Below are positions 6,177 through 62,950 of a DNA stretch of 64,000 bases, piece after piece. The DNA lies in contig CM050657.1 in the NCBI GenBank assembly GCA_027574665.1, forward strand, positions 26,576,700 through 26,640,699. Direction: 5' to 3'. The first letter of the stretch is position 1; the number at the start of each line of letters is the position of its first letter. This DNA is from Rhynochetos jubatus (taxonomy: Eukaryota > Chordata > Aves > Eurypygiformes > Rhynochetidae). Below the pieces are notes generated by a model. The model had not been told where the DNA came from. It saw only the letters and a program-made list of their open reading frames with translations, and ran no database searches. The position numbers and the translations under genes are program-made.

Positions 6177-7709
6177 ATAGAATCATGGATTCATGGAACT
6201 GTGTGGGTTGGAAGGGACCTTAAAGCCCATCCAGTTCCAAACCCCTGTCATGGGCAGGGACACCCTCCACTAGACCAGGTTGCTCCAAGCCTCATCCAGC
6301 CTGGCCTTGGATACTCCCAGGGATGGGGCACCCACAGCTTCTCTGGGCAACCTGTCCCAGTGCCTCCCCACCCTCTCCAGGAAGAATTTCTTCCTGATAT
6401 ACAAACCAAATTCACCCACTTTCAATTTAAACCCATTACCCCTTGTCCTGCCACTACAGGCCCTTGTGAAAGTCCCCCCAGCTTCCTTGTAGGCCCTTCA
6501 GACAGTGGAAGGTGTAATAAGGTCTCTTTGGAGCCTTCTCTTCTCCCAGCCTGTCCCCATAGCAGAGGTGCTCCAGACCTCAGAGCATCTCCGTGGCCTC
6601 CTCTGGACTCATTCCAACCAGTTGATATCCTCCTTACACTGAGGGCCCCAGAGCTGGATGAAGAACTGCAGGTGGGGTCTCACAAGAGCAGAGTAGAGGG
6701 GGAGAATCCCCTCCCTCGACCTGCTGGCCACACTTCTCCTGATACAGACCAGGATATGGTTGGCTTTCTGGGCTGCCAACACACACGGTCAGCTCATGTT
6801 CAGCTTTTCACCCACCAGTACCCCCAAATCCTTCTCCTCAGAGCTGCTCTTGACCCATTTTCCACCCAGCCTGTCCTTGTGCTTAGGATTGCCCTGATCC
6901 AGGTGCAGGACCTTGCACTCGGCCTTGTTGAGCTCCATGCAGCTGGCACAGGCCCACCTTTCCAGCCTGTCCAGGTCCCTCTGGATGGCATCCCTTCCCT
7001 CCAGCGTGTTACCACACCACACAGCTTGGTGTCATCAGCAAACTTGCTGAGGGTGCACTCGATCCCACTGTCCATGTCGCCAACAAAGATTTTAAACAGT
7101 ACTGGTCCCAGCACCGACCCCTGAGGAACGCCGCTCGTCACTGGTCTCCGCTCAGACATCGAGCCATTGACCACAACCCTCTGAGTGTGACCATCAAGCC
7201 AGTTCTTCATCCACCGAGCGGTCCATCTGCCAAACTTATACCTCTCCAACTTGGAGACAAGGGTGTAGTGCAGGACGGTGTCGAACGCTTTGCACAAGTC
7301 CAGGTAGATGACATTGGTTGCCCGTCCTCTATCCACCAAGGTTGTGACACTATCGTAGAAGACCACTGTATTCGTCAGGCACGATCTGCCCTTGGTGAAG
7401 CCATGGTGGCTGTCACCAATCACCTCCTCACTCTCCATGTGCCTTAGCATGGTTTCCAGGAGGATCTGCTCTATGATCTTGCCAGGCACAGCGGTGAGAC
7501 TGACTGTCCTGTAGTTCCCTGGGTCCTCCTTTTTTCCCTTTGTAAAGATGGGGGTTATGTTTCCCCTTTTCCAGTCAGCGGGAATTTCACCAGACTGCCA
7601 CGACTTCTCAGATATGATGGATAGAGGCTTTGCAACCTCATCTGCCAGTTCTTTCAGGACCCGCTGATGTATTTTATCAGGTCCCGTGGGCTTGTGCACC
7701 TTCAGGTTC
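6177..7709 (-). mobile_element. CR1 LINE, 5'-truncated, with reverse-transcriptase remnant
   Basis: Read on the minus strand, this is the 3' half of a chicken-repeat-1 type non-LTR retrotransposon. A frame from about 7699 encodes the reverse transcriptase: [11 protein letters not shown] near residue 100, motif [12 protein letters not shown] near 132, motif [12 protein letters not shown] near 189 and the catalytic FADD near 220. The frame is lost near 7010 and the coding sequence continues in another frame ([27 protein letters not shown]) down to a stop near 6789. The 3' end at about 6177-6240 is the typical CR1 tail (TTGGAAGGGACCTTAAAG on the plus strand) followed by ATTC-type tail repeats. 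The element starts inside the ORF2 coding region, as is usual for CR1. Long plus-strand frames here are only antisense shadows. Confidence 0.93.
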
Positions 7710-49182: not shown

Positions 49183-49509
49183 TCAAAGAATACTTTCTTC
49201 TTCAAAGTCAAATTTCACCACCACCGGCCGGGTCATGTTCCACTTCTTATTTCGATTCCTATCCTCGATGAACTCCTGGTAAGGATCTTTCTTTGAAATG
49301 GCTTTCTTCGAGCGTACATAACCAAAAAAGACAGTTAACGCCAGGAAAGAGTAAAACAACATGACAAAGAGGATGAAGAAATAGGCGTTGTCATATGGTT
49401 TGTATTGTGGCTCTTTTTGTTCTGTAGCGTTTTTCCTTGTGTCCAGGTTCCTTTCCAGAAGTTGCAGAACACATTGTGAGATGAGAGAAGCTAAAGCTGT
49501 TTGGTTCAT
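49183..49509 (-). CDS. KCNE-family potassium-channel beta subunit, intronless, extra paralogue
   Basis: This is a complete 108-residue frame with ATG at 49509-49507 in a good start context (CACCATGA) and stop TGA at 49183-49185. The N-terminus has two N-glycosylation sequons (NQT at residue 2, NAT at 27), fitting an extracellular side. One hydrophobic segment spans about residues 43-65 (AYFFILFVMLFYSFLALTVF). The KCNE hallmark follows: GYVRSKK at 63-69, then KDPYQEFIEDR at 74-84. KCNE proteins are single-pass subunits that alter gating of voltage-gated K+ channels such as KCNQ1. Where KCNE1 has FTL and KCNE3 has TVG, this protein has LAL (56-58). Length and membrane-proximal sequence are nearest KCNE3 and KCNE5; the tail (WNMTRPVVVKFDFEEESIL) is unlike any I recall. 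It is not KCNE4, whose gene lies on the other side of PAX3 in human. A single coding exon is typical of the family. The 5' UTR exons were not identified. Family membership is nearly certain; the subtype is open. Confidence 0.9.
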   Translation of the reverse strand: MNQTALASLISQCVLQLLERNLDTRKNATEQKEPQYKPYDNAYFFILFVMLFYSFLALTVFFGYVRSKKAISKKDPYQEFIEDRNRNKKWNMTRPVVVKFDFEEESIL

Positions 49510-54770: not shown

Positions 54771-56168
54771 CTTCGAAAAAGGCAAGAAGGAGGACCTGGG
54801 TAACTATGGGCCATCAGCCTCACCTCCATCCCTGTAAAGGTGATGGAACAACTTGTTCTTGGTGCCATCTCAAAGCACGTTGAGAAAACAAAGCTTATCA
54901 CGAGTAGTCAGCATGGATTCAACAAGGGAAAGTCATGCTTGGCCAATCTGATAGCTTTTTATGATGGCAACACTAGATGGATGGATGAGGGGAAGGCAGT
55001 CGATGTGGTCTACCTTGACTTCAGCAAAGCATTTGACACGGTCTCCCATGGCATCCTCATCGCCAAGCTTAGGAAGTATGGACTGGGCCATTGGTGGTGA
55101 AGTGGGTTGGGAACTGGCTGGAGGAAAGAGCTCAGAGAGTTGTGGTCAATGGGGCAGAGTCTAGTCGGAGGCCTGTGGCTAGTGACATCCCCCAGGGGTC
55201 TGTTCTGGATCCAACAACACTATTCAATATATTCATCAATGACCTGGACGAAGGGCTAGAATGTCCTCTCAGCAAGTTGCTGATGATACCAAACTGGGAG
55301 GAGTGGCTGCCATGCCAGAAGGTCGTGCTGCCATCCAGCGTGACCTGGACAGGCTGGAGAGCTGGGCGGGGAGAAACCGAATGCAATTCAATAAGGGCAA
55401 GTGTAAAGTGCTGCATCGGGGGAGGAACAATCCCATGTTCCAGTACAGGTTGGGGGCTGTTCTCTTGGAGGGCAGCTCTGGGGAAAAGGACCTTGGAGTC
55501 CTGGTGGACAACAGGATGACCATGAGCCAACAGTGTGCCCTCGCTGACAAGAAGGCCAGTGGCACCCTGGGGGGCATTAAGAAGAGCGTGGCCAGCAGGT
55601 CGAGGGAAGTTCTCATCCCCCTCTGTTCTGCGCTGGTGAGGCCTCCCCTGGAGTGCTGTGTCCAGTTCTGGGCTCCTCAGCTCCAGAGGGACAAGGAGCT
55701 ACTGGAGAGGGCCCAGCGCAGGGACACTGAGATGGGGAAGGGCCTGGAGCCCCTTCCATGTGAGGAAAGGCTGAGAGAGCTGGGGCTGTTCAGCTGGGAG
55801 AAGAGGAGACTGAGGGGGATCTTATCAATGCTTATCAATATCTAGAGGGTGGGTGTCAGGGGGATGGGGCCAGGCTCTGCTCAGTGGTGTCCAGTGACAG
55901 GACGAGGGGCAGTGGCCATAAACTGGCAAACAGAAGGTTCAACCTGAACATGAGGAAACCCTTCTGCCCTGTGAGGGCGACAGAGCACTGGGACAGGCTG
56001 CCCAGAGAGGAGGGGAGTCTCCTTCCCTGGAGACTTTCCAAAGCCGCCTGGACTTGTTCCTGTGTGATCTGCTCTAGGGGATCCTGCTCTGGCAGGGGGG
56101 TTGGACTGGATGATCTCTAGAGGCCCCTTCCAACCCCAAACACCCTGTGAATCTGTGTGAATCTGTGA
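54771..56168 (+). mobile_element. CR1 LINE, 5'-truncated, with broken reverse transcriptase
   Basis: The plus-strand sequence begins inside the reverse-transcriptase region (GKKEDLGNYG) and proceeds through QHGFNKGKSCLANLIAFYDG, motif A VYLDFSKAFDTVSHGIL, motif B PQGSVLDP and the post-catalytic [10 protein letters not shown] and CVQFWAPQL segments. The frame breaks several times: near 54835, near 55100, and at about 55272, where one T of the FADD codons appears missing. It ends with the CR1 3' UTR (GGGGGGTTGGACTGGATGA) and a TGTGAATC-type tail at about 56145-56168. The 3' region (AACATGAGGAAACCCTTCTG) differs from the copies at 6177 and 63791, so it belongs to another CR1 subfamily, one resembling the classical chicken CR1. 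Confidence 0.93.
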
Positions 56169-62171: not shown

Positions 62172-62206
62172 TTACGCAATATCTGGCTTCAGATAATGAA
62201 AGGCAC
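62172..62206 (-). CDS. PAX3: PAX3 last coding exon (exon 9), tail AFHYLKPDIA
   Basis: On the minus strand a strong acceptor (pyrimidine-rich tract then TTTTTTGCAG) precedes GTGCCTTTCATTATCTGAAG. With the first base of the split serine codon donated by exon 8, this reads S-A-F-H-Y-L-K-P-D-I-A followed by TAA at 62174-62172. This is the known C-terminal end of the long PAX3 isoform (PAX3d in human). The exon is phase-compatible with exon 8. It is too short to appear as an open frame by itself and was found by looking for the conserved tail. The C-terminal region is part of the Pro/Ser/Thr-rich transactivation domain. Identification is close to certain. Confidence 0.95.

Positions 62207-62950
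<744 letters not shown>

Follow-up and report, generated by a model that had tools for sequence, protein, structure and literature searches.

An intact KCNE-family frame between PAX3 and EPHA4 in the bird Rhynochetos jubatus, a probable orthologue of KCNE6

The genome of Rhynochetos jubatus contains, on the EPHA4 side of PAX3, an intact member of the KCNE family that is separate from KCNE1-5. We consider it likely that this frame is a functional, single-copy sixth bird KCNE gene, and its most likely identity is that of a KCNE6 orthologue, KCNE6 being known here by description alone. The frame lies in a window of 64,000 nucleotides, by which we mean the whole stretch of DNA that was analysed, and the coordinates of the features discussed below are collected in Table 1.

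Results

The initial annotation had placed a 108-codon intronless KCNE frame at window positions 49183-49509. These coordinates are exact and the frame is intact; it is encoded on the minus strand, which that annotation leaves out. The frame scored 38.3 bits against the Pfam family ISK_Channel (PF02060; E 1.3e-9, cut-off 22.1) and 37.9 bits when the whole genome was searched with the same family, and the sole other Pfam row obtained for it, SLC52_ribofla_tr, reached 15.1 bits, which is below its cut-off of 27.9. When the frame was compared with solved chains, those of KCNE1, KCNE2 and KCNE3 being taken by us as human, KCNE3 was the best match (E 1.7e-7), followed by KCNE2 (1.3e-4) and KCNE1 (2.3e-4), a ranking that covers KCNE1-3 only, as the 11 sequences listed include neither a KCNE4 nor a KCNE5 chain.

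Frame length alone is little evidence for a gene, since ATG frames of 108 codons or more number 18 in the window and 2 to 12 in each of 20 first-order shuffles. A chance frame is nevertheless ruled out by the ISK_Channel homology. An Rfam search of the window at gathering thresholds returned 0 matches. Elsewhere in the window, a 299-aa open frame on the minus strand (6800-7699) holds a reverse-transcriptase domain (RVT_1, 95.9 bits) and is probably a fragment of a CR1-type LINE; for two frames that resemble it, at 55091-55845 on the plus strand, Pfam returned nothing at E 0.01.

The translated frame has every feature that had been read from the letters at the outset: the sequons, the single membrane span with its LAL triplet, and the stretch GYVRSKK...KDPYQEFI. 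Only one hydrophobic stretch was found, and its best 19-residue window, residues 44-62, has a mean Kyte-Doolittle value of 2.56. Two sequons, N2 and N27, are located on the N-terminal side of this span, and a third, N91, would be cytosolic because it lies on the C-terminal side. The span is followed by a basic flank (residues 66-89, net charge +5) that is predicted to be cytosolic, and the C-terminal tail of the frame is acidic (WNMTRPVVVKFDFEEESIL). In its predicted topology, the protein would thus have the layout of a KCNE subunit, with a single span, N-terminal sequons and a basic flank.

Table 1. Positions of the KCNE frame, its protein features, its neighbours and the other KCNE frames of the genome
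Feature	Position	Strand	Basis or remark
KCNE frame (probable KCNE6)	window 49183..49509	minus	108 codons, single exon; ATG at 49509, TGA at 49185-49183
Same KCNE frame, genome position	contig 12, 26625882-26626208	minus	stop codon added to match
Predicted membrane span, residues 44-62 (FFILFVMLFYSFLALTVFF)	window 49324..49380	minus	hydropathy; aligns with KCNE3 span
LAL triplet, residues 56-58	window 49336..49344	minus	aligned position of KCNE3 T71-V72-G73
KCNE signature (juxtamembrane to cytosolic), residues 65-82 (VRSKKAISKKDPYQEFIE)	window 49264..49317	minus	sequence, KCNE3 alignment
PAX3 coding end (AFHYLKPDIA and stop)	window 62172..62204	minus	taken as the PAX3 C-terminal motif
Open frame with C-terminal PAX3 coding exon, taken as penultimate	window 62651..62947	minus	PAX3 C-terminus; PAX-domain exons up-contig
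EPHA4 ligand-binding exon	contig 12, 26454201-26454665	minus	EPHA4 E 1.5e-99 vs EPHA3 1.9e-79
PAX-domain exons	contig 12, 26714234-26715959	minus	PAX domain
AMP-binding exon, taken as ACSL3	contig 12, 26911439	plus	15/82 candidates scored
KCNE4 frame (L012)	contig 12, 26951178	plus	Pfam ISK_Channel search of genome; putative name, from the human protein and nearby AMP-binding exons
KCNE1 frame (L009)			solved KCNE1 chain, E 3e-35
KCNE2 frame (L010)			solved KCNE2 chain, E 2.5e-54
KCNE3 frame (L014)			solved KCNE3 chain, E 2.3e-37
KCNE5 frame (L011)	contig 14		putative name, from the human protein; ~18 kb from AMP-binding exons

On contig 12, the order of the features is EPHA4 exon, KCNE frame, PAX3 end, PAX-domain exons, AMP-binding exon and KCNE4. 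The PAX3 stop lies 12.7 kb upstream of the ATG of the KCNE frame on the same strand, with the KCNE frame on the EPHA4 side, and KCNE4 is located ~325 kb from the window frame on the 5′ side of PAX3. We take AFHYLKPDIA followed by a stop to be the C-terminal end of PAX3, and the open frame taken as the penultimate coding exon, for which Pfam returned no match, was presumed from the PAX3 C-terminus as well. The placement between PAX3 and EPHA4 proposed in the initial annotation was borne out by the PAX-domain exons, the PAX3 end and the EPHA4 exon that flank the frame, and KCNE4 was found, as expected there, across PAX3 from the frame, close to the AMP-binding exon taken as ACSL3. The PAX3-EPHA4 interval also offers a fixed landmark by which this gene can be found or excluded in other genomes.

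We searched the genome (1.33 Gb in 148 contigs) with ISK_Channel and obtained ten listed matches, seven of which were above the cut-off; the three below it (L016-L018) were left out. Because all seven KCNE-type frames read from start to stop as one open frame, the intronless state of the window frame is no sign of retroposition. The frames L012 and L011 are taken to be KCNE4 and KCNE5 on the basis of the human proteins and of neighbours presumed to be ACSL3 and ACSL4. Because KCNE1-5 are represented by five separate frames in the same genome, the window frame is none of them.

A bird copy of any of KCNE1-5 is thus rejected, with the names of KCNE4 and KCNE5 being putative. For KCNE3, the orthologue has its own frame elsewhere, and the window frame has LAL, not TVG, and a tail other than that of KCNE3 (VDKRSDPYHVYIKNRVSMI); for a KCNE5 orthologue beside ACSL4, both names being presumed, there is a separate KCNE5 frame on contig 14. 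A search with the protein of the frame itself listed 8 matches, and of these the window frame alone was full-length; four others were the KCNE3, KCNE5, KCNE4 and KCNE2 frames, and L006-L008 (E 0.6 to 3.9) were not KCNE.

AMP-binding exons, taken as ACSL3 and ACSL4, were located within ~40 kb of KCNE4 (C12:26911439-26951390) and KCNE5 (C14:21819926-21841357), which suggests that a single ancestral KCNE-ACSL pair was doubled along with the vertebrate genome. In a zebra finch survey, chicken KCNE1L adjoins an ACSL-like gene, and the KCNE1L interval corresponds to bird chromosome 4A (Lovell et al. 2013, PMC3711925); KCNE5 lies here on a contig of 26 Mb, which is the size one would expect of 4A. 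A globin exon on contig 19 likewise agrees with a bird genome: among the best 60 of 91 matches, it scored 134.8 to 139.2 bits against single alpha-A globin chains such as 3wr1, 1a4f and 3wtg, which we take as avian, and 103.4 bits against the common human alpha chain. Tandem engineered chains ranked first merely through the summing of two stretches of 100.8 bits each.

The seventh of these frames, also KCNE-like and intact, encodes 137 aa and is flanked by KCNE2 and KCNE1 (L015:1315-1728, minus strand; G000:C2:37841658-37842071). It scored 31.8 bits against ISK_Channel, which is above the cut-off, matched KCNE1 best among the solved chains (E 0.0029) and is without the DPYxxYI motif. The relevant portion of a human gene list reads KCNE2, SMIM11A, FAM243A, SMIM34A, KCNE1, with SMIM34A at the place of L015. 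Judged by gene order, L015 may be the bird SMIM34, in which case SMIM34 would be a KCNE relative.

To place the frame within the family, we aligned ten rows with MAFFT, namely the seven frames of this genome (including L015) and three human chains. Identity to the rows of the same genome was 27/84 for KCNE5, the highest share among the nine rows compared with the frame, and about equal for KCNE3 (24/82), followed by KCNE1 (23/99), L015 (19/102), KCNE2 (19/103) and KCNE4 (17/88). The ten-row tree showed the frame as sister to the pair of bird and human KCNE3 (support 47/38). When L015 was left out, the nine-row tree joined the frame to bird KCNE3 alone (50/44), the arrangement with an undivided KCNE3 pair scoring almost as well, and the frame plus the KCNE3 pair had a support of 84/93. 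When KCNE4 was omitted too, the eight-row tree had the frame outside the KCNE3 pair, and the three sequences formed a group at 65/79. These trees are built on few columns and long branches, the end branch of the frame being very long, amounting to 3.1 to 5.5 changes per column, and in the AU test all tested groupings were compatible (p 0.14 to 0.51; KCNE4 grouping, p 0.40). Overall, the trees lean towards a position of the frame near KCNE3/KCNE5 and give no date for the split. Viral and prokaryote contigs yielded 7 and 65 pattern matches, respectively, none of which was a relative by tblastn.

Because the AU test rejected none of the groupings tested, the frame could be a diverged relative of KCNE3 or KCNE5, that is, a fast-evolving duplicate from the sauropsid or bird line that was moved beside PAX3 and is functional without being the KCNE6 orthologue. 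The AU test was compatible with a sister position to bird KCNE3 in the ten-row (p 0.19) and eight-row (p 0.29) sets and to KCNE5 in the ten-row (p 0.20), nine-row (p 0.29) and eight-row (p 0.14) sets, and the nine-row placement with bird KCNE3, near tie though it is, points the same way. We nevertheless regard such a duplicate as unlikely, because bird and human KCNE3 share 69/98 aligned residues, compared with the 24/82 shared by the frame and bird KCNE3, and a recent origin would need extreme acceleration with the frame left intact. When the frame, extended by 4 kb at either end, was compared by blastn with the KCNE3 and KCNE5 loci, the former gave one match of 33 bp, inside the frame, and the latter one of 28 bp (E 0.029), and the published KCNE6, as described in a review passage (PMC13054283), already explains a KCNE3-like sixth member. 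A processed retrocopy was rejected as well: the 3 kb downstream of the frame contain no A-run of at least 8, and its flanks lack homology to the KCNE3 locus.

Whether an unconstrained copy would have stayed open was examined in a decay simulation with 20000 copies per step, rates of our own choice and indels set to 8% of substitutions. With substitutions alone, 20.6% of the copies kept start and frame at 0.1/site, 5.8% at 0.2 and 0.9% at 0.4, and with indels these values were 1.5%, 0.035% and 0/20000. An unconstrained copy would be expected to lose its frame. Provided that the lineage has the age suggested by its low identity, selection has kept the frame open, an argument that becomes weaker if the lineage is young. 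Less likely still than a duplicate is a degenerating or unexpressed relic whose frame is open by chance or after a recent loss of function: its GC3 of 0.49, the lowest among the seven KCNE-type frames, would agree with decay, but 108 codons without a stop or frameshift, the A at -3 of the start codon, the family signatures and the decay simulation argue for a working gene, which is presumably expressed. Simple scans recorded polyadenylation-type hexamers 576 and 754 bases past the stop and acceptor-like sites upstream, which carry no weight because the scans were without a control.

Discussion

Because KCNE1-5 are excluded, the sequence is KCNE3/5-like and the host is a non-mammal, the frame is best read as KCNE6. 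The abstract by Kasuya et al. reportedly describes the KCNE6 nucleotide sequence as present throughout vertebrates and translatable up to marsupials; if this is right, bird copies of KCNE6 are already covered. Two citing reviews (PMC13054283, PMC13031570) credit Kasuya et al. 2024 (Commun Biol 7:1662) with KCNE6, and a sixth KCNE member as such is already known. The sixth KCNE lineage proposed in the initial annotation thus stands as an extra, single-copy, intact paralogue outside KCNE1-5 and falls as a novelty, KCNE6 having been in print since 2024.

In the passage of one review that deals with it, zebrafish KCNE6 is recently identified, homologous to KCNE3 and produces a slow IK-like current with KCNQ1 (PMC13054283), and a passage of the other assigns KCNE6 to 'lower vertebrates' (PMC13031570). 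The name 'KCNE6' also appears in an excerpt of another paper, where it is set beside Kv6.2 and apparently denotes a different gene. For the zebra finch, a potassium-channel table built from human genes has KCNE1, KCNE1P (a pseudogene), KCNE3 and KCNE4 as its KCNE rows, KCNE1L is given as missing, and the excerpted text of that survey makes no mention of a KCNE beside PAX3 (Lovell et al. 2013, PMC3711925).

Least probable of all is a further KCNE lineage beyond KCNE1-6, kept in birds between PAX3 and EPHA4, in which LAL and the acidic tail would make KCNQ1, or some other Kv channel, behave as it does with none of KCNE1-6. The LAL triplet, the WNMTRPVVVKFDFEEESIL tail and the very long end branch would suit this reading, but KCNE6 is homologous to KCNE3 in the review passage (PMC13054283), which matches the best solved relative of the frame, and it is less parsimonious to assume yet another unknown lineage. 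If the frame is KCNE6, as we favour, Rhynochetos jubatus has at least six KCNE genes, and bird KCNQ1 currents could be tuned by a subunit that is absent from human KCNE1-5.

As KCNE6, the frame would encode a type I single-span protein with N-terminal glycosylation sequons, a KCNE3/KCNE5-like helix and a cytosolic part made up of the RSKK...DPYxxFI stretch and the acidic tail, and this protein may sit, as KCNE3 does, as an auxiliary subunit in the groove between the voltage sensors of KCNQ1 (Kv7.1). In KCNE1 the triplet is FTL and goes with slow activation, in KCNE3 it is TVG and goes with a constitutively open channel, and the tight packing of KCNE3 on S1 of KCNQ1 depends on the residues at this triplet. 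Because LAL replaces TVG, which puts a bulky L at position 73, and F stands at 76, the sequence suggests a looser hold on the up state of the sensor, and the predicted result would be a slowly activating, KCNE1-like KCNQ1 current and not a constitutively open channel. The slow IK-like current that the review passage gives for zebrafish KCNE6, despite its homology to KCNE3, fits this prediction (PMC13054283).

Like KCNE6, the frame is a KCNE gene of a non-mammal that is additional to KCNE1-5, and among the solved chains of KCNE1-3 it is nearest to KCNE3; the hosts differ, zebrafish versus bird, and the likeness to KCNE6 is drawn from review descriptions. With KCNE3, the frame shares a gap-free alignment over the span, the DNxY entry, the GYxRSxK exit and the DPY motif. 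Compared with human KCNE3, 18/45 core residues are identical, and D55, Y58, I61, L62, M65, G78, Y79, R81, D90, P91, Y92 and I96 are kept, whereas T71-V72-G73 is replaced by L-A-L, D54 by Y, S57 by A, F68 by Y, A69 by S, S74 by T, I76 by F, R83 by K and Y95 by F. The C-terminal tail of the frame is longer than that of KCNE3 and has an acidic end, and the bird has its own KCNE3. Bird KCNE5 differs from the frame in GC3 (0.99 vs 0.49), in its tail and in its separate locus on contig 14, and KCNE4 differs in its long C-terminus and in an identity to the frame of only 17/88.
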